Virus record (IMG/VR): IMGVR_UViG_3300022602_000152
Span: 1-48,699 of that record
Strand: one strand, 5' to 3'
DNA: 48,699 bases
DNA from: a virus
The translations under genes were made by a program, and so were the position numbers. The notes beneath the pieces are model-generated. The model saw only the letters and a list, made by a program, of their open reading frames with translations. It was not told the DNA's origin and did no database searches. Shown here in pieces: positions 3,040 through 16,824 of the stretch. Numbering within the stretch: the first letter of the stretch is position 1; every line of letters starts with the position of its first letter.

Positions 3040-3061
3040 AGTTGATATCTCCCTATAAAAA

Positions 3062-3069: not shown

Positions 3070-3100
3070 GATAATATCAAAAATGATATATACCAATGAT

Positions 3101-3174: not shown

Positions 3175-3190
3175 AAAATTAAATACAGTC

Positions 3191-3817: not shown

Positions 3818-3876
3818 AGGTTGCACACGAGTTTGTGGAACTCGTAGAACTGGATCGATACCAGTAGACGGTACCA
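3802..3876 (+). tRNA. trnH: tRNA-His (GTG)
   Basis: Acceptor GCCGTCT/AGACGGT (G1-T72 wobble), discriminator A, encoded CCA. The anticodon arm is CGAGT-TTGTGGA-ACTCG. The extra G-1 usual for His is not encoded (a T precedes). Its first 16 bases are also the last codons of the upstream CDS. Confidence 0.87.
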
Positions 3877-3905
3877 TTGTTAAATACCCATTGGAGGGTA
3901 CTAAA

Positions 3906-4220
3906 ATGAAATACCTTATACCGTTTCTATTAATAAGCACCTCGGCTATTGCAGAAGACGCAGTTCCACGCTGTGCAAGTGGTGAAAAAATATTTACATA
4001 CTTGAATACAGAATATGGTGAAATTCCTTTTGCAGAATTTCTTGATCCACAAGACCGCCATATGGTAATGACAGTAAGTCCCAAGACAAGCACGTGGACT
4101 GTATTGCTAGAAGATAGCAGTGGAAAATTTTGTGGTATTGCCAGTGGAAGTAAGTTTGAACCCGCAGACCCAAAGAAATTTGAGAAATATAAAGAGAAAA
4201 AACCTGAAACACCAGGTTAA
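3906..4220 (+). CDS. Secreted or periplasmic small protein (104 aa)
   Basis: I chose the ATG at 3906 because GGAGGGT (3892-3898) is a good ribosome-binding site and because the product then begins MKYLIPFLLISTSAIA. This is a short signal peptide with an A-I-A cleavage site near residue 16. The mature part of about 88 residues has two cysteines (RCASG and KFCGIASG) that could form a disulfide, and a lysine/glutamate/proline tail. I do not recognise a family. Export suggests a role at the host envelope, such as superinfection exclusion or lysis control, but that is inference. tRNA genes lie on both sides. Confidence 0.75.
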   Translation: MKYLIPFLLISTSAIAEDAVPRCASGEKIFTYLNTEYGEIPFAEFLDPQDRHMVMTVSPKTSTWTVLLEDSSGKFCGIASGSKFEPADPKKFEKYKEKKPETPG

Positions 4221-4227
4221 AAACTGC

Positions 4228-4255
4228 TTGACAATCTGTTAAAATATGCTATTAT
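4228..4255 (+). promoter_or_regulatory. Sigma70-like promoter for tRNA-Tyr run
   Basis: TTGACA (4228-4233), a 16-nt spacer and TATTAT (4250-4255). The predicted start lies within a few bases of the tRNA-Tyr 5' end at 4265. Confidence 0.75.
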
Positions 4256-4264
4256 AACAATATT

Positions 4265-4350
4265 GGGAGTGTGTGCCGAGCAGCGAAGGCAACGGTCTGT
4301 AAAACCGTGACATAGAAACAGCGTAGGTGCGAGTCCTACCGCTCCCACCA
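4265..4350 (+). tRNA. trnY: tRNA-Tyr (GTA)
   Basis: 86 nt with the long variable arm expected of a class II bacterial Tyr tRNA. Acceptor GGGAGTG/CGCTCCC, discriminator A, encoded CCA, anticodon loop CTGTAAA. Confidence 0.93.
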
Positions 4351-4358
4351 AGATTTAT

Positions 4359-4435
4359 TGCGGCTGTAGAGAACCAGATATCTCACCATCCTCATAAGCT
4401 GGAGATAGGGTGTGCAATTCATCCCGCCGCAACCA
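4359..4435 (+). tRNA. tRNA with CAT anticodon, irregular (Met or Ile2)
   Basis: Acceptor TGCGGC(T)/(C)GCCGCA with the seventh pair mismatched, discriminator A, encoded CCA. The anticodon arm CCATC-CTCATAA-GCTGG has one mismatch. The T loop is TGCAATT instead of TTCAANN, so tertiary contacts may be weak. It may be an Ile-lysidine or Met tRNA, or a decaying gene. Confidence 0.65.
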
Positions 4436-4555
4436 AAATTGTAGCAGTATGGCACTGCTTGTGAAGCACCTACGGAGATGGTAGGAGTGCAGATGAGCAA
4501 TCATCTAACGCAACAAATGCCAACAGTTTGCCAACAGTAGGGTTGCAAACCTACT
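4436..4555 (+). other. Hairpin-rich non-coding stretch
   Basis: No ORF or regular tRNA is present here. It holds hairpins in series: GCAGT/ACTGC (4444-4458), CCTAC/GTAGG with a 7-nt loop (4469-4485), AGATGA-GCAA-TCATCT (4491-4506) and CAGTAGG/CCTACTG (4535-4556). A direct repeat TGCCAACAGT occurs at 4518 and 4529. The stem sizes are tRNA-like, but I find no complete cloverleaf. It may be a structured small RNA or tRNA debris. Confidence 0.4.
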
Positions 4556-4630
4556 GGTCGTTCGTCTATGGGATAGGATACAACTGCGGAGTCGGTTGAG
4601 AGATGGGTTCGACCCCCATACGACAGGCAA
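4556..4630 (+). tRNA. tRNA-like gene or pseudo-tRNA, anticodon unclear
   Basis: It has GTCGT/ACGAC acceptor pairs (4557-4561/4620-4624), a Glu-like D region TCGTCTATGGGATAGGA and a perfect T arm ATGGG-TTCGACC-CCCAT. The anticodon arm CAACTG/CGGTTG encloses only six bases (CGGAGT), so no standard seven-base loop with U33 can be drawn. The 3' end reads AGGCA rather than CCA. Confidence 0.45.
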
Positions 4631-4641
4631 TCAGGCGAGAG

Positions 4642-4758
4642 GGTTGTAGGTGACCTGTATTGACTGGGAACCTTCTTATGAACAAATGTGTGATGGAATA
4701 ACTAGAACTATCACTACCAACGGTTGTAGGTGACGATGGGATTATATAGGAACCTTCT
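4642..4758 (+). repeat. Pair of split direct repeats in a gene-free gap
   Basis: GGTTGTAGGTGAC, 12-14 variable bases, then GGAACCTTCT occurs twice (4642-4676 and 4722-4758), 80 bp apart. Between the copies is GTGAT...ATCAC with a 15-nt loop. GGTT and AACC within each copy can pair. The purpose is unknown; a protein-binding pair or paired RNA elements are possible. Confidence 0.6.
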
Positions 4759-4768
4759 ATAAGTTTAT

Positions 4769-4844
4769 CTCTGTAAAGTGTTACCTGGTTGCATCCACGA
4801 TTTGGAGTCGTGTGGTTGGGGTTCGAATCCCCATACGGAGACCA
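4769..4844 (+). tRNA. trnP: tRNA-Pro (TGG)
   Basis: Acceptor CTCTGTA/TACGGAG with the C1-G72 pair typical of Pro, discriminator A, encoded CCA. The anticodon arm CACGA-TTTGGAG-TCGTG and the T arm TGGGG-TTCGAAT-CCCCA are canonical. Confidence 0.92.
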
Positions 4845-4945
4845 ATATAAAAGACGGTAAGGCACAGTAAACAATCCGCAATGGCGATGGGATGTGTCAC
4901 GGTGTGGGCGATAGATGGGGGCTGCACACTGACTTTTGAATTTTT

Positions 4946-5029
4946 GGATCGGTTACCGTAGTGGCGAACGGCCTAGGCTTTTAACCTAGTATACAAACAT
5001 CATGGGTTCGAGTCCCATCCGATCCTCCA
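4946..5029 (+). tRNA. trnK: tRNA-Lys (TTT) with an enlarged variable region
   Basis: Acceptor GGATCGG/CCGATCC, discriminator T (Lys is usually A), encoded CCA. The anticodon arm is CTAGG-CTTTTAA-CCTAG. The variable region is about 12 nt without a stem, giving an unusual length of 84 nt. The 100 nt before it hold no gene, only a 7-bp hairpin CGGTGTG/CACACTG (4900-4931). Confidence 0.8.
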
Positions 5030-5038
5030 AAAAATATA

Positions 5039-5073
5039 GGTAGAGCATAAATATAATAAAAGGATGCTCTACC
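5039..5073 (+). promoter_or_regulatory. Hairpin with an embedded late promoter (translation switch)
   Basis: GGTAGAGCAT (5039-5048) and ATGCTCTACC (5064-5073) form a perfect 10-bp stem. CATAAATA (5046-5053) lies in its left arm and loop, so a late transcript would begin near 5059 and lack the left arm. The ribosome-binding site AGGA (5061-5064) touches the right arm. Read-through RNA should therefore hide the site and late RNA expose it, as known for some T4 late genes including I-TevI. Confidence 0.65.
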
Positions 5074-5074
5074 C

Positions 5075-5503
5075 ATGCCAAGTAAAATAAAAAGTGTTTG
5101 TAAAAATTGTGGTGTTAGTTTTATACACGGAAACAGTTCATATGGAATATATTGTAGTAATAAGTGCCAAGGGGAACTTAAATCTAAAACAATTCTAGAA
5201 AATTGGTTTAATGGAACAGATAAAGGTTATAAAGTAGGATTTAGAATTAAACCTGCTATAAGAAATTACCTGTTAGAAAAAAATAATTATAGTTGCTCTC
5301 AATGTGGGTGGAATAAAATAAACCCTAAAACAGGAAAATCCCCTTTAGAAATTGATCACATTGATGGAGATTGCGCAAACAATAAAGAAGAAAATTTAAG
5401 GGTTCTTTGCCCAAATTGTCATTCTTTAACCCCAACATGGAAGGCATTAAACAAAGGAAATGGGAATAAAGAAAGTCATCGATATTCAGGTCTTATAAAA
5501 TAG
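5075..5503 (+). CDS. HNH homing endonuclease
   Basis: This 142-aa protein has an N-terminal zinc finger (Cys9, Cys12, Cys27, Cys31) followed by an HNH nuclease with C74-x2-C77, the EIDHIDGD core (Asp94, His95), ENLRVLCPNCH (Asn107, Cys112, Cys115) and His116. It would cut DNA near its own insertion site. It lies directly after tRNA-Lys, matching the tRNA-linked pattern of the other endonucleases here. Expression is probably held until late infection by the hairpin at 5039-5073. The length and domain order are typical of free-standing phage HNH enzymes. Confidence 0.9.
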   Translation: MPSKIKSVCKNCGVSFIHGNSSYGIYCSNKCQGELKSKTILENWFNGTDKGYKVGFRIKPAIRNYLLEKNNYSCSQCGWNKINPKTGKSPLEIDHIDGDCANNKEENLRVLCPNCHSLTPTWKALNKGNGNKESHRYSGLIK

Positions 5504-5548
5504 AACCCATGAGCGTTCACCAATATTACCAAACTGCAATTTTCTCCT

Positions 5549-5556
5549 CATAAATA
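5549..5556 (+). promoter_or_regulatory. T4-type late promoter
   Basis: CATAAATA, 25 nt before the ATG of the oxygenase gene at 5582. An AATAGAG stretch lies between them as a weak ribosome-binding site. Confidence 0.55.
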
Positions 5557-5581
5557 ATCTACAACAATAGAGAAAATCAAC

Positions 5582-6298
5582 ATGAGTCCTGACATTAGAG
5601 ATTATGAATCACGAGAAGCGTTTATTCGTGATCTTAAAATATGGCATCATGATAAATCCGTAAAACAAGATGAATTTACTAAACTAAAATCTACTACTAT
5701 TGATTATAGCGCAGAACTTACAAAATTAAAAAACAAGCTAGAAATAATTAAAACGACTTGGAATGACCAAAGTATTGCTACAATACGCAAACATGTTGCC
5801 CAAAGCGGCAATCAGCAAAGCGTGGAAATAATGGTTGGTCAAGATAATGACAAGATCAAAGCTGGGTTAGATATTAATAAGTCAATGTATCATGTTCAGC
5901 AAGTAAGCAATGACAGTGTTTGGTATAAGATTGCTCAACAATATCCATTTGATAATCCACTTGTTAGATTGCATGTTCAATTTCCAGGCGATGTTACTCA
6001 GTGGCATACTGATATTTTTGCGCCTTATCACAATCTTTTGCCAAAAACTGCTAATATGCCAACCGAAGAAATTGGCAAAGATGTTGGCATTAGAAGAATT
6101 TTAATCGCAATTGAAGATTGGGATTGGGGACATTGCTTTATGTTTGGTGCAAATATGTGGCATCAATGGAAAGCTGGCGAAGCAATTTACTGGAACTATG
6201 GCGTTCCTCATTGTGCCGCTAATATGGGATTTACTCCTAGAATTTCATTAAGCATAACTGGTTTGCTGAACGAAGATATTAATAATTATTTTGTATGA
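5582..6298 (+). CDS. 2OG-Fe(II) oxygenase-like protein (238 aa)
   Basis: The C-terminal half carries the iron-binding triad of 2-oxoglutarate/Fe(II) oxygenases of the aspartyl/asparaginyl hydroxylase type. It has WHTD (His142, Asp144), a distal His210 in VPHCAANMG and Arg220 for 2-oxoglutarate. The first 70 residues are charged, with coiled-coil character. The protein shares its core (WxAGEAI-W-VPHxxANMG) with the gene at 14635-15366, so the phage has two paralogues. The substrate is unknown; protein, nucleotide or small-molecule hydroxylation are all possible. Its stop overlaps the next ATG by four bases, so it leads a three-gene operon with the PP-loop enzyme. Confidence 0.8.
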   Translation: MSPDIRDYESREAFIRDLKIWHHDKSVKQDEFTKLKSTTIDYSAELTKLKNKLEIIKTTWNDQSIATIRKHVAQSGNQQSVEIMVGQDNDKIKAGLDINKSMYHVQQVSNDSVWYKIAQQYPFDNPLVRLHVQFPGDVTQWHTDIFAPYHNLLPKTANMPTEEIGKDVGIRRILIAIEDWDWGHCFMFGANMWHQWKAGEAIYWNYGVPHCAANMGFTPRISLSITGLLNEDINNYFV

Positions 6299-6585
6299 CT
6301 AAAAAATCTATTGCCGTAAAACAATCAAAAGAATTTTTAGAACTACACCAATCATTTAGTGAAGTTAAACAAAAGTTAGTTCACTTATATGTTAAAAACA
6401 ACTATGATAATAAATTTTTGCAAGCATGTGCCGATCTAGATGAATTTCAATTAAGAATTACGCAAGATTTTTTAACATACTCAACCAATGATACCGATAA
6501 AAACTTAGATGAATTTTCTGACTCTATTGGACTTATCAAAATTTATCTTAGTAATTTTTACAATGTTTACGAAAACAATTTATAA
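6295..6585 (+). CDS. Small hypothetical protein of the oxygenase/PP-loop operon (96 aa)
   Basis: This 96-aa protein is mostly helical and charged, starting MTKKSIAVKQSKEFLELHQ. No family is recognised. It overlaps the oxygenase stop by ATGA and shares its last base with the ATG of the PP-loop gene, so translation of all three is coupled. A small subunit or carrier for the flanking enzymes is possible, but it has no lipoyl- or ACP-like attachment motif that I can see. Confidence 0.8.
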   Translation: MTKKSIAVKQSKEFLELHQSFSEVKQKLVHLYVKNNYDNKFLQACADLDEFQLRITQDFLTYSTNDTDKNLDEFSDSIGLIKIYLSNFYNVYENNL

Positions 6586-7691
6586 TGAAAGCAATTCAAT
6601 CATTTTCTAATCAAACAATGTTTGATAAAATATTAAATTTACATGGCATAATTGGAAAAAATTATGATTATGAAGGATATGATGATTTAAAATTGTTATA
6701 TGATATAAACAAGATTTTTAGTAATAAGCCATATGGTGAAATAATAGACAGAACAGGATTGACAAAATATCCTTTTAAAGTTCATATTAGATTGCCATGG
6801 GTTATACCAACCAAACCCGTTGATCTAAAAACTGCATGTGAAAATAAAGTAAAAGAAATTGCCGCAACTAATCCAAATCAATTTTATATCTATTGGAGTG
6901 GCGGAATTGACAGCACCCTTATGTTGGTTAGCTTTCTTAAATTAATCGATCATAACAAAATAACTGTTATTTTAAGTAATCGATCTATTGAAGAATATCC
7001 ACACTTTTATACAAATTTTATTAAAAACAAATTAACAGTTTTAACCTTATCTGATAACATTCCAAAAGATAACGGTGTTCATATTACAGGTGATCCCGCT
7101 GACACTTTATGGGCAATTTTAGATCATTCCTTCATGGAAGGAGAAGCTGGTGCTTATCTTTATAAACCATATCAAGCTTGGTTTAAGCATCGTGGAGCAA
7201 GTGAAGATTTAATAGAAAAAACCAATGAGTTTATGAATCGTAGCGGTAAAACAATAACTACATTGTTTGAAGCCAGATGGTGGTATTATTTAAATTGCAA
7301 GTCACAAAGTAAATGCGTTAGCATAACTTCACGATTTGATATAAACAAAAATTATTGTCCATTTTTTGAAAGTAATGATTTTGATACTTGGTCATTTTAC
7401 AATACTGATCACATGATAGTTGGCAGCGATTGGAAAACTTACAAATATCCTGCAAAAGAAATAATCTATGAGTTTGCAAAAGATAGGGATTATCTGCTAA
7501 ACAAAAGCAAAGATTATAGTGATGATCCTGCTAATCAACTTAGAAAAGTTCCATCTAATTTTAGAAACAAACCGTTGTTTATAACAGATGATTATAGGCA
7601 ACCAGTACTATCAAGTGGTTTCTTTTTTAGTGAAAACATTTATAAACAAGAATTATACGAGACATATAAAGATTTATTCAAGCCTACGTAA
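6585..7691 (+). CDS. PP-loop ATP-pyrophosphatase-like protein (368 aa)
   Basis: The SGGIDST signature at residues 105-111, after a YIYW strand, is the PP-loop of the N-type ATP pyrophosphatase/asparagine-synthetase superfamily, which activates a carboxyl or carbonyl by adenylylation. A GDPADTLWAIL segment near residue 170 fits a second nucleotide-side helix. No glutaminase domain is present, so ammonia or another nucleophile must come from elsewhere. The N-terminal 100 residues are unassigned. Pairing with a 2OG oxygenase in a coupled operon suggests a modification pathway for a peptide, tRNA or metabolite. The exact reaction cannot be stated. Confidence 0.75.
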   Translation: MKAIQSFSNQTMFDKILNLHGIIGKNYDYEGYDDLKLLYDINKIFSNKPYGEIIDRTGLTKYPFKVHIRLPWVIPTKPVDLKTACENKVKEIAATNPNQFYIYWSGGIDSTLMLVSFLKLIDHNKITVILSNRSIEEYPHFYTNFIKNKLTVLTLSDNIPKDNGVHITGDPADTLWAILDHSFMEGEAGAYLYKPYQAWFKHRGASEDLIEKTNEFMNRSGKTITTLFEARWWYYLNCKSQSKCVSITSRFDINKNYCPFFESNDFDTWSFYNTDHMIVGSDWKTYKYPAKEIIYEFAKDRDYLLNKSKDYSDDPANQLRKVPSNFRNKPLFITDDYRQPVLSSGFFFSENIYKQELYETYKDLFKPT

Positions 7692-7707
7692 CTCAGTGGA
7701 ATAGAAT

Positions 7708-7786
7708 GCAACTGTATGCCGCCTGACTTCGAATCAGGAGAAAGCTAATTGGATACATGTAGGTTCGAGTCCTATCAGTTGCTCCA
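7708..7786 (+). tRNA. trnR: tRNA-Arg (TCG), rearranged: D arm out of place
   Basis: Acceptor GCAACTG/CAGTTGC pairs perfectly, discriminator T, encoded CCA. The anticodon arm CCTGA-CTTCGAA-TCAGG and the T arm GTAGG-TTCGAGT-CCTAT are good. Only seven bases (TATGCCG) stand where the D arm should be, and the variable region is about 20 nt. A D-arm-like stretch (TAACTCAGTGGAATAGAAT) lies just upstream of the acceptor strand, and another D-like stretch (AGCTAATTGGATA) lies in the variable region. Confidence 0.6.
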
Positions 7787-8441
7787 CAAACATTTTTACT
7801 TCTTCTATGTTGCCAACATATAAAGAAATTAATAATTTTAATTGATTTAGTTTATCAAAATCTTCTTTTTGTTTTATAGGATTTTTAACATCTATAAAAT
7901 AGTTGAAATTAGGTAGAAAAAAATCTGGAAGATATGTTCTATTTTTGTTTAACGTGGTGTCAAACCATTTTAATCTTGATGTTGGTCTAATCCATTTTAT
8001 ATTATTTTCTGTAAGCCAAGTGGCTATTTTCAATTCCCAACTTGATTGCAGAATTATAATCTTATCTTCATAATGATTATAATATTCAATTTTAGTTTTA
8101 ATACATTTATTTTGAGACCTAATTGAATCTCTGCATTCTACCGAACAACATTTTTGATTTGGTTTAGTTTGCCAAAATTCTTTATTACACGAATGACAAG
8201 AATACCTTCCATATAATTTAGTATATGTATGTCTTGTTAATGGTTTACGAGGTGGCGATGGTTTTGAAATTATTCCCAATTCAATATTGTTTTTCATCTT
8301 TAAAGAAGTTTTTCTTTTAGATTCCTCACTGCGAGGCACCTTTCTGTAATTATTATATGTTGCAGCACAACTTTTTGAACAAAATATTTTTTTATGTTTG
8401 GTTTTTACAATTTCAATTTCACAATGTTTACATTTAATCAT
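7734..8441 (-). CDS. Zinc-finger PD-(D/E)XK-type homing endonuclease
   Basis: I start at the ATG at 8441 (MIKCKHCEIEI). The N-terminus has zinc-finger pairs (CKHC with a later CSKSC, and CHSC with a later CCSVEC). A C-terminal nuclease region follows, with a conserved Glu in SSWELKIATWL, then RTYLPDFF and FIDVKNP. The E, PD and DxK residues match PD-(D/E)XK/VSR-like homing nucleases. The gene runs antisense to its neighbours and its last 18 codons are antisense to tRNA-Arg, so the stop was acquired from the tRNA sequence. It is AT-rich. A late motif lies four bases before the ATG and there is no ribosome-binding site. Confidence 0.8.
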   Translation of the reverse strand: MIKCKHCEIEIVKTKHKKIFCSKSCAATYNNYRKVPRSEESKRKTSLKMKNNIELGIISKPSPPRKPLTRHTYTKLYGRYSCHSCNKEFWQTKPNQKCCSVECRDSIRSQNKCIKTKIEYYNHYEDKIIILQSSWELKIATWLTENNIKWIRPTSRLKWFDTTLNKNRTYLPDFFLPNFNYFIDVKNPIKQKEDFDKLNQLKLLISLYVGNIEEVKMFVEQLIGLEPTCIQLAFS

Positions 8442-8445
8442 AATG

Positions 8446-8453
8446 TATTTATA
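8446..8453 (-). promoter_or_regulatory. T4-type late promoter abutting a start codon
   Basis: A perfect TATAAATA on the minus strand followed by CATT and the ATG at 8441. The spacing predicts a leaderless message. Confidence 0.55.
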
Positions 8454-8502
8454 CAAACGAACTAATATGTTGGAAGTTCAAATCATCCTTAAAAAATAAT
8501 GC

Positions 8503-8530
8503 TTGACAAAGTTTAAAATATAAGTATAAT
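8503..8530 (+). promoter_or_regulatory. Sigma70 consensus promoter for tRNA-Asn
   Basis: TTGACA (8503-8508), a 16-nt spacer and a perfect TATAAT (8525-8530), ending 17 nt before tRNA-Asn. Confidence 0.85.
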
Positions 8531-8547
8531 GATAATACAAAGGTTAT

Positions 8548-8623
8548 TCCCGAATAGCTCAACTGGCAGAGCACAGTGCTGTTAACACTGGGGTTACTTG
8601 TTCGAATCAAGTTTCGGGAGCCA
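8548..8623 (+). tRNA. trnN: tRNA-Asn (GTT)
   Basis: Acceptor TCCCGAA/TTCGGGA, discriminator G as expected for Asn, encoded CCA. The anticodon arm CAGTG-CTGTTAA-CACTG is perfect. Confidence 0.94.
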
Positions 8624-8626
8624 TTC

Positions 8627-9250
8627 TTAAAACGGTAGTGGAAAGAAATACCAAATTCCATCTGCTAATACAATCAAGCCAATGATACCAACCGCAATGC
8701 TGCTATACCATAGAGCCATACTAACGGCAAGGATAGCAGTGGTTGAGAAGATAATAGCAATCTGAATGATTGTACCAGCCATACCAAAGAATGGACTACG
8801 TTTCTTGGCACTATCACGGTCTGCTTCTAGCGCACGACCTTTTGTCATAATTTCTTTTTTACCATCGCCTTTTGGATCGCTTTCTAACGCATCAATATAT
8901 TTTTGATAGTTATCGGCACGTGCTTTTAAGGCTGGTATTAAACTTTTGTCTGTTGCTGGATCAGCAATTTGAACTTTTAAATCATCAAGGTTAAGTTGAT
9001 ACATGTTTTGCTTGATGCTTTTGGCTTGATAAAAACCCCAAGTATCACCAAGTTCAATATTATCAGCCATGATTTTGCCACTAACTTGACCACCAAGCCA
9101 AGACGTGATTGCTAACAATGCAGCAAATATTGTGATTGTAATAGAAGCAAGTCCTTTAAGAACAGCTTCACCTTCACTACGACTTAATACCTTACCATTC
9201 TTATCTTTCATAACCATGTCTAATAATCCTTGAATTTGTTTCAGGTCCAT
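8627..9250 (-). CDS. Membrane protein, DUF4337-like (207 aa)
   Basis: The layout is a cytoplasmic N-terminus, one membrane helix near residues 33-52 (ASITITIFAALLAITSW), a soluble middle domain and two C-terminal helices (about 153-176 and 183-203). The segment DTWGFYQAKSIKQNMYQ is the hallmark of the DUF4337 family of bacterial inner-membrane proteins of unknown role. Presence in a phage suggests capture from a host. It is transcribed against the tRNA genes and ends three bases from tRNA-Asn. No clear late motif precedes it, so its control is unknown. Confidence 0.75.
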   Translation of the reverse strand: MDLKQIQGLLDMVMKDKNGKVLSRSEGEAVLKGLASITITIFAALLAITSWLGGQVSGKIMADNIELGDTWGFYQAKSIKQNMYQLNLDDLKVQIADPATDKSLIPALKARADNYQKYIDALESDPKGDGKKEIMTKGRALEADRDSAKKRSPFFGMAGTIIQIAIIFSTTAILAVSMALWYSSIAVGIIGLIVLADGIWYFFPLPF

Positions 9251-9346
9251 GTTAAAACTTTGCTAATGTTTGTGCTATGATTGTGCATCCCAAGAATGTA
9301 TGGGCTAAAATAAACGAATAAAGAAGATAATTTATATACTTTTCTC

Positions 9347-9378
9347 TTGACATGCATAACTATTTATTGTAATATAAT
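9347..9378 (+). promoter_or_regulatory. Sigma70-like promoter for the Leu-Thr-Ser tRNA run
   Basis: TTGACA (9347-9352), with TAATAT at 17-nt spacing (9370-9375) or TATAAT at 20-nt spacing (9373-9378). tRNA-Leu begins at 9387. The preceding 90 nt (9251-9346) hold no ORF. Confidence 0.65.
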
Positions 9379-9386
9379 TAAATGAT

Positions 9387-9464
9387 GCCCCGCTGGCCCA
9401 ACTGGTTAGAGGTGCTTGACTTAGAATCAAGAGGTTCCCCGTTCGAATCGGGGGCGGGGCACCA
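9387..9464 (+). tRNA. trnL: tRNA-Leu (TAG), class I shape
   Basis: Acceptor GCCCCGC/GCGGGGC, discriminator A, encoded CCA. The anticodon arm is CTTGA-CTTAGAA-TCAAG and the T arm CCCCG-TTCGAAT-CGGGG. The variable region is only five bases, whereas bacterial Leu tRNAs have a long variable arm. The anticodon says Leu; charging by LeuRS is uncertain. Confidence 0.8.
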
Positions 9465-9483
9465 ATATTATTAAAAACGGTTA

Positions 9484-9557
9484 GCCCCGTTAATTAAATG
9501 GTATAATAATTGTTTAGTAATCAATATTTGGCAGTTCGATTCTGTCACGGGGCACCA
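9484..9557 (+). tRNA. trnT: tRNA-Thr (AGT), weak anticodon arm
   Basis: Acceptor GCCCCGT/ACGGGGC, nearly the same as the neighbouring tRNA-Leu. Discriminator A, encoded CCA, T arm GGCAG-TTCGATT-CTGTC. The best anticodon arm is ATTGT-TTAGTAA-TCAAT with a T-T mismatch next to the loop, giving AGT. The D and anticodon stems are almost all A-T. Confidence 0.7.
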
Positions 9558-9563
9558 TAATAC

Positions 9564-9647
9564 GGAGGTATGCGAGCAAGGTGCTCAAACGGTCTTGAAA
9601 ACCGTGCCACCGCAAGGTTGATGGTTCGATTCCTTGTACCTCCGCCA
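9564..9647 (+). tRNA. trnS: tRNA-Ser (TGA)
   Basis: 84 nt, class II with a long variable arm. Acceptor GGAGGTA/TACCTCC, discriminator G as expected for Ser, encoded CCA, anticodon arm ACGGT-CTTGAAA-ACCGT. Confidence 0.93.
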
Positions 9648-9667
9648 AAACAGAAAGTAAAGAGAAA

Positions 9668-9778
9668 ATGTATAAGTTTTATAGACGATTTGTAGATGAA
9701 GCCTCACGTATTTTATGGTTGATTCTTATAATTCACTGGTTAATTTCTGGGCTTGACTTGTCAAGTTTAGTTAAGTAA
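9668..9778 (+). CDS. Tiny membrane protein (36 aa)
   Basis: ATG at 9668 follows AAAGAG, a plausible ribosome-binding site. The peptide begins MYKFYRRFVDEASR, a basic and amphipathic start, and continues with one hydrophobic helix, ILWLILIIHWLISGL (15-29). This is the form of a single-span small membrane protein. No family is recognised. It fills the gap between tRNA-Ser and tRNA-Gly. It could be an envelope effector, but a chance ORF is not excluded. Confidence 0.5.
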   Translation: MYKFYRRFVDEASRILWLILIIHWLISGLDLSSLVK

Positions 9779-9785
9779 AGATGAT

Positions 9786-9859
9786 GCGGAGTTCGTATAG
9801 TGGCAATACCTCAGATTTCCAATCTGATGCGAGGAGTTCGATTCTCCTACTCCGCTCCA
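9786..9859 (+). tRNA. trnG: tRNA-Gly (TCC)
   Basis: Acceptor GCGGAGT/ACTCCGC, discriminator T, encoded CCA. The anticodon arm TCAGA-TTTCCAA-TCTGA is perfect. It is the last tRNA found in the window. Confidence 0.94.
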
Positions 9860-9895: not shown

Positions 9896-10054
9896 ATGAG
9901 TTATTCAATTGCCAAGATGATTGAGTTTGCTTTCACTTATATCATTGTCAACGAATTAAAAAATGAAAAGCACGAAATGCCAAATGATCTTAGGCAAACA
10001 TTATTAGATTATATGTCCATGCGGGTTGAACAAATAAAAAAACAATACCGATGA
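9896..10054 (+). CDS. Small hypothetical protein (52 aa)
   Basis: This ORF of 52 codons begins MSYSIAKMIEFAFTYIIVNEL. Its stop overlaps the next ATG as ATGA (10051-10054), which supports both genes as a coupled pair. The sequence is helical, with a mildly hydrophobic N-terminal part and a basic end. No family is recognised. A late-type AATAAATA lies four bases before the ATG and there is no ribosome-binding site, so it may be read from a leaderless message. Confidence 0.6.
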   Translation: MSYSIAKMIEFAFTYIIVNELKNEKHEMPNDLRQTLLDYMSMRVEQIKKQYR

Positions 10055-10347
10055 CGCCTACAATAGATGATATAGAAATAGGTTTATTAACCTCTCTTGC
10101 CCCAGACAAATATCTTATTAAAATATATCCAAATCTTTCTGGTACAGTTTTTCTACCACCGCTTAGCACAAATTTTCTCAAAGAAACAATTCAACAACCA
10201 TTAAAGAAATGGTGTGACGAATGTTTTAGTGGCAGTTATTCATTAAATTATAGATTCAATAGCGGCGATCCATATTGGTCGCTACTTTTTAATAATAGCG
10301 AAGATGTTAATATCTTTATGTTGCGCTTCGGCTCAAATAAACTCTAA
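10051..10347 (+). CDS. Hypothetical protein (98 aa)
   Basis: This 98-aa protein of mixed alpha/beta character begins MTPTIDDIEIGLLTSLAPDK. It has two cysteines (WCDEC) in a CxxC-like spacing, with no other sign of metal binding. No family is recognised. It is coupled by ATGA to the upstream 52-aa ORF. Its last 32 bases overlap the end of the convergent sulfotransferase-like gene. Confidence 0.7.
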   Translation: MTPTIDDIEIGLLTSLAPDKYLIKIYPNLSGTVFLPPLSTNFLKETIQQPLKKWCDECFSGSYSLNYRFNSGDPYWSLLFNNSEDVNIFMLRFGSNKL

Positions 10348-10948
10348 TATCATTTGCCGCATAGTTTTGAATATTCAATTGTAATGGCGTAGCAATTCCT
10401 AACTTTTCACATAATTCAATATTGTCATACATCATTGATGATTGATTATTTTTTACAAACTTCTTTAAGTCTTCGTTTTGTTTATCAATATGATGACTCA
10501 TATCACGCAAATTCTTATAATATCCTTCATAACTAGGATAAGTTATGTTAAAGTGTCCACAACGGACCCACCAGCCCAAACAAGCATCATTGTCTCGGTG
10601 AACGAGAATGATTGGGCAATCTGGCCAAGTCTTGCGAATAAAATCAAGATGATGGCAGAACACATGACTCTTAATGATGCGAACTCCCTCACCACTAAAC
10701 GGACGATCAAATTCCTCTTCTAATTCGTGCTTGCTCATATATTCCATTAGATTAAGTTTGTCACCAAATTCCATACCTGTATCAAAATACGCACCAAGAT
10801 GCATAAGCTGATTGGTACCACTGGCGTCATGATAATAGGTTCTCTTATCGCTATAATCACTGGTATCAATGCTTGAAGAAAAATAAATGTTTTTTACTAC
10901 ACTACTCCACTTACTGCCTGGTGCGCCCGCAACAAAAATATATTTCAT
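10316..10948 (-). CDS. Sulfotransferase-like P-loop protein (210 aa)
   Basis: The start MKYIFVAGAPGSKWSS has a glycine-rich PAPS-type loop (GAPGSKWS, residues 8-15) after a first beta strand. A central CPIILVHRDNDACLGWW fits the strand-helix that holds the 3'-phosphate site in sulfotransferase folds. Two other genes here (13889 and 16183) share the same layout. The acceptor could be a lipid, a sugar or a protein; nothing in the sequence decides. It is the last gene of the minus-strand accessory operon. Its ATG overlaps the stop of the inserted GIY-YIG gene by four bases and is preceded by AGAGGT. Confidence 0.65.
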   Translation of the reverse strand: MKYIFVAGAPGSKWSSVVKNIYFSSSIDTSDYSDKRTYYHDASGTNQLMHLGAYFDTGMEFGDKLNLMEYMSKHELEEEFDRPFSGEGVRIIKSHVFCHHLDFIRKTWPDCPIILVHRDNDACLGWWVRCGHFNITYPSYEGYYKNLRDMSHHIDKQNEDLKKFVKNNQSSMMYDNIELCEKLGIATPLQLNIQNYAANDIRVYLSRSAT

Positions 10949-11592
10949 AGCCGACCTCTTGTATAACCAGAAGGTTGTTGATTTTCATAAAATCTTCTTG
11001 ATTTATTTCCATCATTATACCACAATTTGCCTTTACAAGCGTTCGAGTATGCGGTAATTAATTCTTCCGTTAAATTTACTTTTGATTTTTTTCTACTATT
11101 GCTTATTTGTTTTCTTGTTTCTTCTGTATGATGTTTGCCATACATTCCGTTTTCTTTACCTTTTAATTTTGGATTTTTTGGATTAGGTTTGCCATACCTA
11201 TGATTTTTTTGACCTGTTTGTGCTAACGATTTTTTTCTACTATGTTCTTCTGTAAATTTTCTACCTTTTAATTTAGAAGAAACTTGATTTTTCCATTGTT
11301 CTGTTTTCACAGAACTTCCCAATCCGCCAACTGTCATATTATAATTGTCAGAATTTTGAATAAATTGCTCATTTACTAATAAAAATTCCTTTTCAAACGC
11401 TTGTTTTCTAGTTTCAAAAAATTCTAATATTTCAAAAGTAAAATTTTCTAACCCATATTTTTTAATTGCTTGTTTTATTTGAATTCCAGAACCATAATAA
11501 TTATCATGAATATTATTTGTGCTATGTGCTCCAATATAAAACTTACCAGTAACTTTATTTGTTGTTCTATATACATAGTGATATTTTTTCAC
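10945..11592 (-). CDS. GIY-YIG homing endonuclease, NUMOD3 motif
   Basis: This 215-aa protein has YVYR at residues 6-9 and FYIG at 18-21, the GIY and YIG elements, then YGSG and KYGLENF. NUMOD3-type repeats follow (GRKFTEEHSRKKS and GKHHTEETRKQIS). It sits inside the accessory operon with no gap. Its GTG start overlaps the stop of the nucleotidyltransferase gene (TAGTG) and has an AAAGGA ribosome-binding site. Its stop overlaps the ATG of the next gene. The insertion therefore kept translational coupling on both sides. The AT-rich, lysine-rich composition differs from its neighbours. Confidence 0.88.
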   Translation of the reverse strand: MKKYHYVYRTTNKVTGKFYIGAHSTNNIHDNYYGSGIQIKQAIKKYGLENFTFEILEFFETRKQAFEKEFLLVNEQFIQNSDNYNMTVGGLGSSVKTEQWKNQVSSKLKGRKFTEEHSRKKSLAQTGQKNHRYGKPNPKNPKLKGKENGMYGKHHTEETRKQISNSRKKSKVNLTEELITAYSNACKGKLWYNDGNKSRRFYENQQPSGYTRGRL

Positions 11593-11969
11593 TACAATAA
11601 TCCTTTTTGTTTCATATCCTCTCTAATTTTTGTAGCAGATATTGCTTCTATTTCATCAGGAAGTTCTATCTTATTTATCTTGTATCCCACATCTCTACCA
11701 TAAAAAATTTCTGTAATATTAGAAACTAGATTGACTAAAAAATCATGTTTAAATTTAAAACCTTCTGCTTCTAAATCTTTTATAATTTTTTCTTTAACAA
11801 ATGAATAATCAAACGGATTTTTCTCATCTGTTCCGCCAGTGTCACGAACCATAATCATAACTTGACCTGTCTTGGCATGTGCTCGCTTAAACAATTCAGT
11901 ATGACCTGGATGCCATGGCTGGTATCTTCCTAATAATTGTACAGTTGGTGCTTGATTATTCCATGTCAT
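11592..11969 (-). CDS. HxGH nucleotidyltransferase (cytidylyltransferase-like, 125 aa)
   Basis: The protein has the nucleotidylyltransferase motifs GRYQPWHPGH (HPGH at residues 20-23) and ISATKIR (110-116). These correspond to the HIGH and ISSTxxR motifs of the NadM, TagD and ATP-sulfurylase-like superfamily, which join a nucleotide to a phosphate-bearing substrate. A VRDTGG loop at 41-46 fits the fold. It directly follows the adenylylsulfate-kinase-like gene with ATGA coupling, so the two may act in sequence on sulfate or on an NMN- or phosphate-type substrate. The family is clear; the substrate is not. Confidence 0.75.
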   Translation of the reverse strand: MTWNNQAPTVQLLGRYQPWHPGHTELFKRAHAKTGQVMIMVRDTGGTDEKNPFDYSFVKEKIIKDLEAEGFKFKHDFLVNLVSNITEIFYGRDVGYKINKIELPDEIEAISATKIREDMKQKGLL

Positions 11970-12439
11970 GATAATTTTAATCCCTTAAACATTGCTTTAA
12001 TCCAAGTTGGATGAGTGTCGAAATCTAGTTCTTCCATAATATACTTTGACCAGAAATCCGCATCTTGTGTGTCTACACGAAAATAATAACTGCCTGGTTC
12101 TGGATTCACAAACATTTTGTTCGTGTCTTCAAATCGCCCTTCTTTGATCGTGTCAACCCAAATAACGGTAGCAGGTCCGAAGGCTGCACGAGTAGCTGGT
12201 GTGGGACAAACAAAATCGGCTATCACCCATGAACCTGCTGCCGTAACTTGGTCACAAAGCCATCCCATTCGTCTGGCTTGTTCAATTCTATCTGCTTCAC
12301 TGAATCCAAGATGACTGTTAATGTTTGCACGAACAGCATCAGCGTTCCAGTGAACTGCTTTTAATTTTGGTGCTAAGGCTTTCGCCAGAGTGGTTTTACC
12401 CGACCCTGGCAAGCCCATTATGAGTATCTTCTTGTTCAT
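11966..12439 (-). CDS. Adenylylsulfate-kinase-like P-loop kinase (157 aa)
   Basis: Walker A is GLPGSGKTT (9-17). The segment NADAVRANINSHLGFSEADRIEQARR matches the APS-kinase pattern (D-x-VR, N..LGFS..DR..) and ADFVCP matches the strand after it. APS kinase makes PAPS, the sulfate donor for sulfotransferases, and three sulfotransferase-like proteins are encoded nearby. The C-terminal third, with WVDTIKEGRFEDTNKMF, is less conserved, so a related small-molecule kinase is possible. It overlaps the symporter stop by four bases and the next gene by four bases. Confidence 0.72.
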   Translation of the reverse strand: MNKKILIMGLPGSGKTTLAKALAPKLKAVHWNADAVRANINSHLGFSEADRIEQARRMGWLCDQVTAAGSWVIADFVCPTPATRAAFGPATVIWVDTIKEGRFEDTNKMFVNPEPGSYYFRVDTQDADFWSKYIMEELDFDTHPTWIKAMFKGLKLS

Positions 12440-13905
12440 GTGGAAGCCTTACTAATTTGTGTGATGGCAAGTGATAAAACACCACTGCCAAATACAGCAA
12501 GCATAGTTCCTAGAACCGCAATGTTTGGTCCACCACCAAAGTTCATGCCATAAACATAAGTGGTAAATCCAACTAGGTATGCAATCAACACACCCCAAAA
12601 CATTCCACGCTCGTTAACCAATCTATCATTCCATAGGCTCAGCATGAGTGGGAACCATACTGTTGCACGAAGAATACCAAAGAACAAGAAGATGGTTACC
12701 AGAGTCATACCAGGCCAGTTAGCAAGGGTTAAACCAGCAACAATAAGACCTAACATACCAAACCGTGCATAGGTAATGCTTTTTACATTGCCAATATCAG
12801 TTGGCAAATCGTTGACCATGTTTTTAATATCATGCCCAACAAGGTTACCAACACTGCTCAACTGGCTGTCAAGGACGCTTACAAGCCCAGCAAACAGCAT
12901 AAACAAGAATAACATAGTTGCCCAATGAGGAAGAATTGCTCCAATAGTTACAATGTTTGTGTATCCAACCAATGCCTTTGGAATATCATAATGCATACCA
13001 GCAGCAAGGAAACCTAATACGCCCGTTAATAGTGGAACGATAACAAAGATACATGCGCCGCCGACGAATGCACGGATTACATTTTCACGCTTGATAGCAA
13101 ATGCTCGTTGATAGAAACTATTATCTCCCCACGGTGCACCAAGATGTCCAATTGCAGTTGAGAAACCAACACTCATGAATACGCCAAGAGCAAAATCAGT
13201 TCCATAGATAGACGAACCGTTACCTGTAATGCCACCGAGACCAGCACTTACAATATCCCATCCACCAACACTAGATACTGCCCAAGGAACAAGAATAACC
13301 AAGCCAAGAATAAGCATACTTAACTTGAACATTTCTGTAATCACGCTTGCTTTTAAACCACCACGAAGAGTATATGTGAGAGCGATTGCAGCAAGGATGA
13401 AACTTACCGTATGATAATCCATACCTGTTAACACTTCAACACTCTTACTACCAGCAAGAACATTAATAGCAAATGAGCAGATTGCTAGCATACCAAGTTC
13501 AATCATGAATAGAATCTGCACACGATTACTGAATCGTTCTTTCAGGTATCCACTGATTGTAAATCCATCTGGTTTACGATCACGAAGACGAGAGGCAAAC
13601 CAACTGAATACAATGAGTGATAGGAAGTTACCGATTGTAAACCAGAACAATCCTACTACGCCATTTTGATAGGCTTGCTGTGCACTAATAAACATGCCTG
13701 GTGCCCACATCCAAGCAGCACCTGTGCTCATGGCACCTTGCAGCGTCGTTAATTCACGCTTTGCTACAAGAAATCCTTCTTTGGTATTAGCAAATCCACG
13801 TGCAAACCAATATGTTAGTCCAAAAATAACAGCAGCATATACTGCCAAAATTGTCATTCCTGTTCCGCTGTCAAATAGCGGAAACAATTTAGTGAAGTCC
13901 ATCAT
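12436..13905 (-). CDS. Sodium:solute symporter family protein (489 aa)
   Basis: This long, strongly hydrophobic protein has about 13 membrane helices spread from residue 15 to the end, as in the SSS (LeuT-fold) family. The helices include the sequences TILAVYAAVIFGLTYWF, GVLGFLAAGM and LFAGLVSVLDSQLSSVGN. The last matches the family region containing the Na+-site serines. An ATG at 13905 (and another at 13902) follows AGGAG. It is full length with no break. Import of a solute into the infected cell, or out of it, is the expected job; the substrate is unknown. Placement with kinase, transferase and oxygenase genes in one overlapping operon suggests an auxiliary metabolic module. Confidence 0.85.
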   Translation of the reverse strand: MMDFTKLFPLFDSGTGMTILAVYAAVIFGLTYWFARGFANTKEGFLVAKRELTTLQGAMSTGAAWMWAPGMFISAQQAYQNGVVGLFWFTIGNFLSLIVFSWFASRLRDRKPDGFTISGYLKERFSNRVQILFMIELGMLAICSFAINVLAGSKSVEVLTGMDYHTVSFILAAIALTYTLRGGLKASVITEMFKLSMLILGLVILVPWAVSSVGGWDIVSAGLGGITGNGSSIYGTDFALGVFMSVGFSTAIGHLGAPWGDNSFYQRAFAIKRENVIRAFVGGACIFVIVPLLTGVLGFLAAGMHYDIPKALVGYTNIVTIGAILPHWATMLFLFMLFAGLVSVLDSQLSSVGNLVGHDIKNMVNDLPTDIGNVKSITYARFGMLGLIVAGLTLANWPGMTLVTIFLFFGILRATVWFPLMLSLWNDRLVNERGMFWGVLIAYLVGFTTYVYGMNFGGGPNIAVLGTMLAVFGSGVLSLAITQISKAST

Positions 13906-14638
13906 TATACTCCTTAAAAATATTATAAATTGATTGTTGTGCAGCGGTCAAATCCGCCAATTTGTTGCTATACAAGTCATCAAGAACTTGTAAATTGTTT
14001 TGCATACTAACCATGCGAGCATGAACATTAGTAAAATCTAACGCATCTACGATATCCCAATCTAAATGCGTATATAACTTTTGAAGTAATTTAGTTGGAT
14101 CGCCATTTAAAATATCACTGACGCTGACTCTAACAATACGAGAATCTGATACATCGCACGAACGATTATCAATCTCTTGCTGCAATCGTTCTGTTAATTG
14201 TGCATCATCCCTAATGTCAAGCATACCATACCAACGCTCACGAGTCATCTTTGTTTCATTGTTTAACCAACATAAGAATACCTCATGTAGGGTAGGTCTT
14301 TCAATAAAAATAATTCGATCATCACTATTCATCCAACGAAGTATTTGGTGGATGGCTGGGTCAATATCCTCTCCGATAGCCGCTGGCCATCCACCATAGA
14401 TGCTGTAACCCCAGTGGGAAATGGCATTACGGCATTTTTCTAATTCTTCCATAAACGAATCGGTATCACGCACTTTGCAAAAACTTGCATAACCATGACT
14501 ACTGCCATCTGGTTGCAAAGGATTATCCATTATAGGTGGCTGATGCGTTTTTCTAATAGCATTAAAACGGTCTAATGCCCAACCAATAAAACTGCCATAG
14601 GCACCAGGCGCATATACTATGGTAATAACTCGATTCAA
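13889..14638 (-). CDS. P-loop, sulfotransferase-like protein (249 aa)
   Basis: The start MNRVITIVYAPGAYGSFIGW resembles the strand-loop-helix PAPS-binding element of sulfotransferases, with APGAYGSF in place of a classic PKxGTT loop. RIIFIERPTLHEVFLCWL (around residue 90-125) fits the core strand with the Arg that binds the 3'-phosphate. RIVRVSVSDIL is a later strand. The fit is weaker than for the other two, so a general P-loop family call is safer. It overlaps the oxygenase stop by four bases and the symporter start by 17. Confidence 0.55.
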   Translation of the reverse strand: MNRVITIVYAPGAYGSFIGWALDRFNAIRKTHQPPIMDNPLQPDGSSHGYASFCKVRDTDSFMEELEKCRNAISHWGYSIYGGWPAAIGEDIDPAIHQILRWMNSDDRIIFIERPTLHEVFLCWLNNETKMTRERWYGMLDIRDDAQLTERLQQEIDNRSCDVSDSRIVRVSVSDILNGDPTKLLQKLYTHLDWDIVDALDFTNVHARMVSMQNNLQVLDDLYSNKLADLTAAQQSIYNIFKEYNDGLH

Positions 14639-15366
14639 AGTTTTACCACCAATTGTTTGCTAGCACCACCAACTACATCACGAGTTCTATCTGTAACATA
14701 TCCAGTGATTTGTAACATAGGACGATCCCACCAACCCATGTTAGCGGTGGCATGTGGCATATCTTGCCATTCCCATGTGATACAATCTCCTGCTCGCCAT
14801 TGAGTAAAGTTGGCATTGCCTAGTTGAAATACTTGTCCCATTTCCCAATCTGCTAACATGATGGCAAACCTACGCATAATGTCTGGATTCTTATCCATCT
14901 CTGTTACTTTAAAACTGTTTTCACGTTCTGGTCTGGCTGCAAAATTATCAATATGAGTATGCAGCATTTGTCCTGTTGTTTGATTATGAAATTTAATCAT
15001 GCTTTCATCCATGCCAAGCCAATCGCTTACTTTTTGAAAAATTTCAATATCTTCTGCTGCGGTGCGATTAAACACTTCTTGATCAGGGTTGGCTCCTGCA
15101 CGAATCAAATCTTGTTCTTCTGCGGTTGCACTATACAAACCTTTATCCGCAATATCTTTGTTAAAATTGTTGCGAGTTCCCCAACTACTGGCTTTTGTAC
15201 GAGGCAAGCATTCACGGATTGCATCCGTAAAATCTGCGTCAAATTTACAAACGTGAGTGTAACTGTCTATGCCTGGTGCTGGTGGTCGTTTAGTATCAAA
15301 ATGCCAACGGCTACGGCTTTTAGTAAATTCCCAACGACTATCGCCCCAATTTTCATATTCTGTCAT
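14635..15366 (-). CDS. 2OG-Fe(II) oxygenase-like protein (243 aa)
   Basis: HTHID supplies His138 and Asp140, DMPHATANMG supplies His205, and Arg215 follows in DRPMLQITG. This is the complete Fe(II)/2-oxoglutarate set. The N-terminal 60 residues are rich in Trp and Arg (WGDSRWEFTKSRSRWHFD). It is a paralogue of the 5582-6298 gene with the same core spacing but a different N-terminus. It is the first gene of the minus-strand accessory operon, with a late promoter 50 nt upstream and a GGGAAA ribosome-binding site. The substrate is not known. Confidence 0.8.
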   Translation of the reverse strand: MTEYENWGDSRWEFTKSRSRWHFDTKRPPAPGIDSYTHVCKFDADFTDAIRECLPRTKASSWGTRNNFNKDIADKGLYSATAEEQDLIRAGANPDQEVFNRTAAEDIEIFQKVSDWLGMDESMIKFHNQTTGQMLHTHIDNFAARPERENSFKVTEMDKNPDIMRRFAIMLADWEMGQVFQLGNANFTQWRAGDCITWEWQDMPHATANMGWWDRPMLQITGYVTDRTRDVVGGASKQLVVKL

Positions 15367-15396
15367 AAATTTTTTCCCAAGTTAATTTTTTTCTAA

Positions 15397-15424
15397 GATA
15401 AATAATTTTATAAAGATATTTATA
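15397..15424. promoter_or_regulatory. Divergent late promoters
   Basis: GATAAATA on the plus strand (15397-15404) points to the methyltransferase at 15453. TATAAATA on the minus strand (15417-15424) points to the oxygenase at 15366. The gap 15367-15452 is otherwise very AT-rich and gene-free. Confidence 0.55.
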
Positions 15425-15452
15425 AAAAAATTCAAAAAGTAGGAAAAAATCT

Positions 15453-16190
15453 GTGAATAGAAAAATTTATAACTTTTTATATAAAAATTTGCATGATGCG
15501 TTTAATTTACCAAAGTATGATGATTTTAATAAAACGATGACACAATGGACTATTGTCAATGCATTGCCGTGGACTCCCAAGCGTTGGGAGAAATTTTGCA
15601 ACCAGATTAATAATGAATTTGATTTAGAAATAAATTTTAATGGCACTATTGCAGATATAACGCATGATATTGACCAAAAATATAGTGCAAGATTTTGGGG
15701 AGGCATCTGGCAACCTCGCACCGAAGTTTATCAATTTACAGGTTGGAATATTGTAGAACTTATTAACAAAACAAATCCAAAAGCAGTGTTAGATGTTGGA
15801 TGTGGATTTAACCAGTTTAAGGCTCGTATTCCAAATCTAATAGGCATTGATGCTTATAATAACAGTGCTGATTATATGGTTGATATTCTAGATTATACAG
15901 TTCCTAATGAATCATATGACCATGTTATTGTTTTTGGCAGCATTAATTTTGGCGAGTTTGACGATATCAATGCTAGATTTAAAAAAGTAATAGATTTAAC
16001 TATGGTAGGTGGCAAGATTTATGTTCGTGCAAATCCTGGACATGTTCATAAGAATGGTCAATGGATTGATATCTATCCTTGGGATTTTGACACTGCTTAT
16101 AGAATTTCTCAACTTCATAATTGTGAGTTAAGTTCTTTCAAGAAAGATAATGGCGACAGACTTTATTTTGAGTTAACGAAAAATGCCTAA
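15453..16190 (+). CDS. Class I AdoMet methyltransferase (245 aa)
   Basis: The start is GTG at 15453 with AGGA ten bases upstream. After about 105 residues the Rossmann motif I appears, AVLDVGCGFNQFK, then IGIDAYN (motif II), MVDILDYTVPNESYDHVIVFGSI (motifs III-IV) and VGGKIYVRANPG. This is the full order of a small-molecule or protein methyltransferase. It lacks a DNA-methylase catalytic motif. The substrate is unknown. It overlaps the sulfotransferase-like gene by eight bases, so the two are probably partners. Confidence 0.8.
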   Translation: MNRKIYNFLYKNLHDAFNLPKYDDFNKTMTQWTIVNALPWTPKRWEKFCNQINNEFDLEINFNGTIADITHDIDQKYSARFWGGIWQPRTEVYQFTGWNIVELINKTNPKAVLDVGCGFNQFKARIPNLIGIDAYNNSADYMVDILDYTVPNESYDHVIVFGSINFGEFDDINARFKKVIDLTMVGGKIYVRANPGHVHKNGQWIDIYPWDFDTAYRISQLHNCELSSFKKDNGDRLYFELTKNA

Positions 16191-16824
16191 ACTAATCGTA
16201 TTATTTGGTCCACAGGGAAGTGGCAATCATTTATTTGGTAAAATATTTTCAATGCATCCTGATGTTCATGGATGGAAAGATGCTTTAAAACCAGATGGAT
16301 ATTTCATTCCACACTATAAAGAACCATTTAATTGGTATTGGAATAATATTGATGAGATTGATATGGATATTATGGGCGGTAAAGAATATGCTGTCACTAG
16401 TATATCAAACCCATATGTAGAAAAATGGTTACCAAAAGTTCCACCAATCTATGAGTTTATGGAAAAATGCGAAAGCATTGGCATTGAAGTTCAACCAGTT
16501 GTAATAGGACGTGATAGAAATATTCTTACTCATCAACAAACACGATTACGAGGTGGACCAACTTGGGGCAATATGCCACAATTAATACAATGGATGAAAG
16601 TTCCACCGTTTTATATTTCACAAGAATTGCTATATCTGTATCGCAAACATTATGTTAAAAGCTTATCGCATTGGTTAGATTTTCCTCTTCTTTGGGATGA
16701 TCCACAAATTGAAGAAATTCTTAAAGAAGATGCTAATGAGAAATATATTAAAGCAAGTGATGGCACAGACTTAGATGAGCATGTTAAAATAATTTTAACT
16801 CCGCCATGGTTAAAAACACAATAG
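16183..16824 (+). CDS. Sulfotransferase-like P-loop protein (213 aa)
   Basis: LIVLFGPQGSGNHLFGKIF (residues 4-22) is a good sulfotransferase-type 5'-phosphosulfate loop. The next segment, MHPDVHGW, is also typical. IGIEVQPVVIGRDRNIL (residues 99-115) fits the strand with the 3'-phosphate-binding Arg. It is the third such gene here, after those at 10316 and 13889. It follows and overlaps a methyltransferase, which suggests that a methylated and sulfated product is possible, although this is inference. It ends 33 bases before the neck gene. Confidence 0.65.
   Translation: MPKLIVLFGPQGSGNHLFGKIFSMHPDVHGWKDALKPDGYFIPHYKEPFNWYWNNIDEIDMDIMGGKEYAVTSISNPYVEKWLPKVPPIYEFMEKCESIGIEVQPVVIGRDRNILTHQQTRLRGGPTWGNMPQLIQWMKVPPFYISQELLYLYRKHYVKSLSHWLDFPLLWDDPQIEEILKEDANEKYIKASDGTDLDEHVKIILTPPWLKTQ

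Follow-up and report, generated by a model that had tools for sequence, protein, structure and literature searches.

A conserved phage gene block with an exchangeable uptake gene and a possible role in solute import and modification

Gene content of the locus

The window analysed here, a 48.7-kb IMG/VR virus record (IMGVR_UViG_3300022602_000152, 48,699 nucleotides), contains a compact block of genes around a transporter of the sodium:solute symporter (SSS) family. Seven open reading frames (ORFs) run on the minus strand from 15366 to 10316 with head-to-tail overlaps of 1–17 bases, in keeping with the overlapping operon named in a preliminary description of this DNA. From 15366 these encode a 2-oxoglutarate (2OG)-Fe(II) oxygenase-like protein of 243 amino acids (aa), the first gene of the operon (OX, 14635-15366); a P-loop-like protein of 249 aa (P2, 13889-14638); an SSS-family transporter of the A subtype, 489 aa (12436-13905); a P-loop kinase of 157 aa resembling adenosine 5'-phosphosulfate (APS) kinase (KIN, 11966-12439); an HxGH nucleotidyltransferase of 125 aa (NTase, 11592-11969); a GIY-YIG/NUMOD3 homing endonuclease of 215 aa inserted in the operon (10945-11592; phrog_314, 6e-49); and a sulfotransferase-like P-loop protein of 210 aa (P1, 10316-10948). 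A divergent A+T-rich intergenic region, read from the sequence at 15367-15452, separates this arm from two plus-strand genes at 15453-16824 that are part of the same conserved block, encoding a class I S-adenosylmethionine methyltransferase-like protein of 245 aa (MT, 15453-16190; Methyltransf_23 matched in 15 of 25 homologues, best 1.3e-6) and a second sulfotransferase-like P-loop protein of 213 aa (ST2, 16183-16824). The preliminary description had missed MT, ST2 and the homing endonuclease inside the operon. The genes of the block recur together in dozens of contigs and purifying selection was observed on all genes compared (dN/dS 0.03-0.34), so their association is more than chance.

Conservation of the block and replacement of the uptake gene

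Relatives of the window SSS protein were detected in 63 IMG/VR contigs at 47-81% identity, and a second (B) SSS subtype, with 37-41% identity, occupies that slot elsewhere in the lineage. The virus records compared were mostly fragments, and a check for the major capsid protein found Gp23 in 10 of 50 records. Among 33 non-redundant A-type loci the genes observed near SSS were ST2 (30), MT (28), OX (16), P1 (13) and KIN (3), while ST2, MT, KIN and NTase were all present in 7/7 B-type loci, which were drawn from the KIN search, so that their KIN and NTase counts are biased. P2 occurred in this set only alongside A-type symporters. At the level of whole records ST2 was found in 45 of 48 SSS records, one of the three exceptions having an SSS gene that runs off the contig end, and ST2 and MT are thus the most constant partners of SSS; most of the SSS-bearing contigs examined, many of them fragments, were without such a kinase.

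Three scans selecting for ST2 only, each giving the best 80 matches and hence leaning towards relatives of the queries, yielded 75 non-redundant loci flanked by 4 kb or more on either side, in which transporters within 6 kb were called with profiles built from these same loci. SSS was observed in 24 loci, TctC in 25, TctA together with TctC in 15, neither in 11, and SSS with Tct in none; 64/75 loci therefore had one, and only one, of the two unrelated uptake families (Fisher p 1.6e-11 for the exclusion, a value that ignores kinship and is inflated by it). The SSS label switches five times across the ST2 tree, at least three of the switches being imposed by well-supported branches. The loci without SSS keep MT, P1, ST2, OX and KIN-NTase, and carry TctC alone or with the TctA permease; the family matches were TctA 2.6e-84 and TctC 8.2e-18, and the TctC receptor has an evident signal peptide in many cases. 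In one locus with neither family (L341) a TRAP DctP receptor lies beside ST2 (2.3e-44), its nearest protein in the PDB being an isethionate receptor, with many dicarboxylate receptors close. The sharing of one operon slot by unrelated uptake families is the main new observation of this study.

Exchange within the slot was also seen between the two SSS subtypes. Locus L064 shares 88-92% DNA identity with the window in its flanks; there SSS and P2 (window 12440-14640) are replaced by the other SSS subtype, 38% identical, and the endonuclease interval (window about 10950-11680) is missing. ST2 of the window (16183-16824) and its counterpart (L064:4396-5034) are 58% identical, against 90% for the neighbouring MT and 98-99% for the flanking genes, and in locus L078 an ST2 of the window kind accompanies a B-type SSS, which indicates that the alleles are mosaic.

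Single parts of the block are known in phages, namely SSS transporters (PMC6163359, PMC13288924) as well as tctA and 2OG oxygenases (PMC4164917). The last of these reports describes tctA and a 2OG-FeII oxygenase as separate accessory genes on SUP05 virus contigs, and its accessible text, while sharing these two components with our loci, does not describe the operon or the exchange with SSS. A description of the combined, exchangeable operon was not found in the open-access library searched, and with two family members as queries ST2 gave no significant counterpart among 50,697 phage records, placing the system outside present laboratory phages.

The SSS-family transporter

The 489-aa ORF encodes a full-length SSS-family transporter, as proposed earlier: PF00474 matched over profile positions 1-405 of 406 (1.1e-24; score 87.6 bits, cut-off 22.8) and 12 hydrophobic segments are present; phrog_20720 matched at 5.6e-92, and TIGR00813 at 5.5e-37 with 127.8 bits, under the NCBIfam superfamily cut-off of 184. 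In a phylogeny built from 35 phage and 17 cellular sequences, where the placement of the long cellular branches is uncertain, the phage copies form one clade with support of 100/99 and a long stem; the sister of the other viral copies is an SSS gene, 36% identical, on the human-gut phage contig MT836198 (L147:7918-9321). The phage profile gave at least 650 bits for the aligned phage members and at most 196 bits for cellular matches, and a genome-contig scan with family patterns returned no cellular relative. In the search for a cellular donor, a further scan, profile searches covering about 700 genomes, and plasmid searches gave homologues of no more than 196 bits, with 27% identity for the best plasmid match. 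The phylogeny proposed in the preliminary description for finding the host donor thus delivered a well-supported phage clade and, because homologues reach only this score, no donor that can be named. The phage SSS copies appear to constitute a single old clade that lacks close relatives in cells.

SSS 'sodium/glucose' (SGLT-like) transporters were reported in Aeromonas phages 44RR2, 31 and Riv-10 (PMC6163359), so that the earlier statement that a phage-borne symporter is rare does not agree with the published cases or with the 63 contigs. The Aeromonas genes resemble the window in being phage-borne SSS, but they were reported to be 48% identical to a bacterial protein (PMC6163359), whereas the window SSS has no close cellular kin among our matches, and no Aeromonas phage appeared among matches to the phage SSS even at E 10. 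Virome SSS genes have been interpreted as serving osmoregulation (PMC13288924).

The nearest solved structure to the phage SSS family is the DUR3 urea-proton symporter (PDB 9j7c, 3.9e-36), with SGLT1 at 7.4e-20. DUR3 has lost the second Na2 hydroxyl, as has the phage family; it differs in two stretches of low similarity and in having Ser where the phage family has the invariant Asp346. With the Na2-site register taken from the SGLT1 alignment, position 343 of core transmembrane segment 8 (TM8; first Na2 hydroxyl, vSGLT S364) is Ser in 22/35 and Ala in 13/35 phage copies, and position 344 (second Na2 hydroxyl, vSGLT S365) is Val or Ile in 35/35. The phage family does not retain the full pair of Na2 hydroxyl ligands expected of sodium-coupled SSS members, and sodium coupling is not to be assumed given the Val/Ile in all 35 copies. 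The SSS protein CbrA, which is proton-driven, also lacks Na2 residues (PMC7918813); the loss therefore speaks to coupling rather than to SSS membership. Judged from these residues, the 'sodium' in the earlier designation is doubtful and proton coupling may be suggested instead.

Enzymes of the block

The APS-kinase-like enzyme of the preliminary description was recovered in KIN over the N-terminal half only (residues 4-85; APS_kinase 1.3e-14). The equivalents of K456, D480, R483, F492 and R497 of Mycobacterium tuberculosis (Mtb) CysC are K15, D34, R37, F46 and R51, with K15, D34, R37 and R51 invariant among KIN homologues and F46 kept in at least 90%. The substrate-binding residues described for Mtb CysC include lid residues K562 and F576 (PMC4373884), for which no alignable equivalent was found in KIN, the matches ending at residue 85-94 of the query. 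The binding residues asked after in the earlier text are therefore present in the first half of the site and absent at the lid, and the apsK model was not reached (53.4 bits against a cut-off of 138.7). KIN and NTase correspond to the N- and C-terminal halves of phage family phrog_10255, and other contigs encode them as a fusion. NTase is an HxGH nucleotidyltransferase as described before (CTP_transf_like 2.5e-6, HxGH invariant), with nicotinamide mononucleotide (NMN) adenylyltransferases as its nearest solved structures; as an ATP sulfurylase it missed the PF01747 cut-off (E 0.039; 13.8 against 24.3 bits). The pair thus shares with APS kinase and 3'-phosphoadenosine 5'-phosphosulfate (PAPS) synthetase the N-terminal kinase half and, in fused phage forms, the kinase-then-nucleotidyltransferase order, and differs from them in the unalignable lid and in a short, NMN adenylyltransferase-like nucleotidyltransferase.

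The assignment of OX as a 2OG oxygenase also held: H138, D140, H205 and R215, corresponding to the HxD...H triad and the 2OG-binding Arg, are invariant in 24 phage homologue rows, although the window copy had no Pfam oxygenase match and the best homologue gave 0.03 for 2OG-FeII_Oxy_3. A cyanophage S-SCSM2R match to OX overlaps a gene annotated as inosamine amidinotransferase.

In ST2 the motif GPQGSGNH is invariant and in P1 the canonical GxxxxGK is absent, so that both proteins carry a PAPS-type loop in place of the Walker A Lys, which argues against a role as ATP kinases. No sulfotransferase family model matched any of 39 ST2 members, and P1 matched Sulfotransfer_3 at 9e-5 with 23.3 bits, below the cut-off of 27. 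The AlphaFold models were confident (pLDDT 93.8 for ST2 and 91.4 for P1); the top PDB match of the ST2 model was tyrosylprotein sulfotransferase-1 (TPST1, 1.8e-4), followed by gluconate kinase, and that of the P1 model a sulfotransferase (8e-3), with polynucleotide kinase close behind and sulfotransferases prominent among the matches, none of them under E 0.001. P-loop kinases score nearly as well as sulfotransferases for both models, and a sulfotransferase fold for ST2 and P1 is plausible from the predicted structures. P1 has an invariant KxH and an arginine, which we take to resemble those of cytosolic sulfotransferases. The 3'-phosphate site of sulfotransferases carries a serine 8 residues past the arginine, and no such serine was found in the ST2 or P1 alignments. 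The tyrosylprotein sulfotransferase/SULT fold is the best fold match of both proteins, from which they differ in staying under the family thresholds and in this serine. P2 had no family match in profile searches of the window proteins; of the two sulfotransferase-like proteins named in the preliminary description, the 210-aa P1 stands, at sub-threshold level, and the 249-aa P2 cannot be called one. A relationship of ST2, P1 and P2 as three paralogous sulfotransferases was also considered and is not claimed, as profile comparison supported only a common P-loop.

Proposed function and alternative explanations

We propose, with a probability of about 0.52, that the block is a phage operon that imports and tailors an organic-acid-like solute. 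A phage transporter, here SSS, placed in the inner membrane of the host, would take up one small solute, which is most probably an organic acid or a comparable anion; ST2, P1, MT and OX, and in some phages P2, would modify this solute or attach it to something, and in some phages the kinase and nucleotidyltransferase would make an activated nucleotide donor. The main reason for supposing that the enzymes use the imported solute is that a single operon slot is occupied by unrelated uptake families, and import followed by enzymatic processing, as suggested in the preliminary description, gains support from an uptake gene that is a constant yet exchangeable member of the block. Carboxylate transport is common ground among the SSS, TTT and TRAP families, hence the suggested organic acid-like anion. 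Several points weigh against this proposal: each of these families also carries other solutes; 11 of the 75 ST2 loci have no recognised SSS or Tct transporter, MT, OX and P1 being absent as well from five of these 11; only the receptor TctC is recognised in 25 loci, for which a host permease must be assumed; and the ST2 scans, 80 best matches each, are skewed to query relatives.

That the operon sulfates an imported or host molecule, NTase and KIN making PAPS for ST2, P1 and P2, is possible, though it is not required by the import proposal, and we regard it as unlikely. It would account for the five APS- or ATP-binding CysC residues kept in KIN (PMC4373884), for the fusion of KIN and NTase in that order following ST2/P1/OX in other phages, and for the best fold matches of ST2 and P1; it agrees poorly with the missing lid and low apsK score, the NMN adenylyltransferase-like NTase and the unmatched 3'-phosphate-site serine, and KIN is missing from most SSS contigs, although PAPS could come from the host. 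The sulfation link drawn in the preliminary description is consequently weak, with half of the APS site kept and the sulfotransferase folds plausible. A far smaller probability is given to a non-sulfate donor, in which NTase and KIN might build a 3'-phospho-nucleoside-5'-diphospho-X from which the sulfotransferase-like enzymes would transfer X. The Campylobacter methyl-phosphoramidate pathway comprises a kinase, a cytidylyltransferase, methyltransferases and transferases, to which the enzyme classes of this one operon may be likened, and KIN retains the residues that bind ribose and phosphate, though it has not kept the lid.

Simple scavenging of nutrients or osmolytes, in which the transporter would feed the infected cell while the enzymes encoded nearby separately decorate virion or host glycans, is improbable to about the same degree as sulfation. 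Transporters are already known as phage accessory genes (PMC6163359, PMC13288924), and carbamoyltransferase, radical SAM and arginine deiminase (ADI)-superfamily genes also occur in the neighbourhoods; yet the transporter keeps company with ST2 and MT in unrelated surroundings and is exchanged in place, a pattern not expected of an unlinked role. That the operon is hitch-hiking host DNA without a function for the phage is hardly credible: the mobile endonuclease and mosaic alleles would suit this idea, but the phage-only SSS clade (100/99), the failure to find close cellular kin and the purifying selection speak against it.

Returning to import and tailoring, a broader and more tentative idea is that SSS, TctA+TctC, TctC alone with a borrowed host permease, and a TRAP receptor might be interchangeable front ends of a widespread uncultivated phage system, in which one conserved tailoring set would turn an environmental small molecule into a phage or host modification. 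Phage transporters are usually catalogued singly as accessory genes, whereas here the transporter is a fixed operon role with a changing family. This couples uptake to a particular group of enzymes, and several independent transporters can be used together to test what the substrate is.

Genomic context and additional observations

The window is best read, from its gene content, as a jumbo myovirus fragment. It contains 18 tRNA genes in its left part (1328-9859), mostly clustered, as is typical of large phages, together with tail-fibre genes and a tail sheath stabiliser-like protein that is best matched in jumbo myoviruses, among them Sinorhizobium phage Phosso, Agrobacterium phage Atu_ph07 and Pseudomonas phage PA5oct; in a 338-kb contig (L075) the operon adjoins the same genes as in the window.

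The motif TATAAATA lies at window 15417-15424, 51 nt upstream of OX, and at the same place in seven kin loci (L001, L002, L064, L069, L073, L078 and L079), at 20-62 nt from the called OX start, being conserved in this lineage. Its reading as a T4-type late promoter was rejected, as the window holds fewer copies than shuffled sequences, and neither sigma-70 promoters nor terminators were found in excess in the sequence.

Beside the operon in other phages, proteins like the ADI/amidinotransferase superfamily were observed (L066:4745-5821, ADI 6.9e-5; L337:7648-8895, by resemblance, with no Pfam match), and carbamoyltransferase and radical SAM genes lie near it in several phages (L015:5716-7227, L062:3934-4860 and L272:1006-1992). 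A 98-aa plus-strand ORF (window 10051-10347) overlapping the end of P1 apparently belongs to family F9, kept beside the operon in 17 related loci. At window 6585-7691 a 368-aa protein with an SGGxDS PP-loop motif shows weak PAPS reductase/QueC likeness (phrog_424, E 0.0057), and a copy with 87% identity is present in L103.

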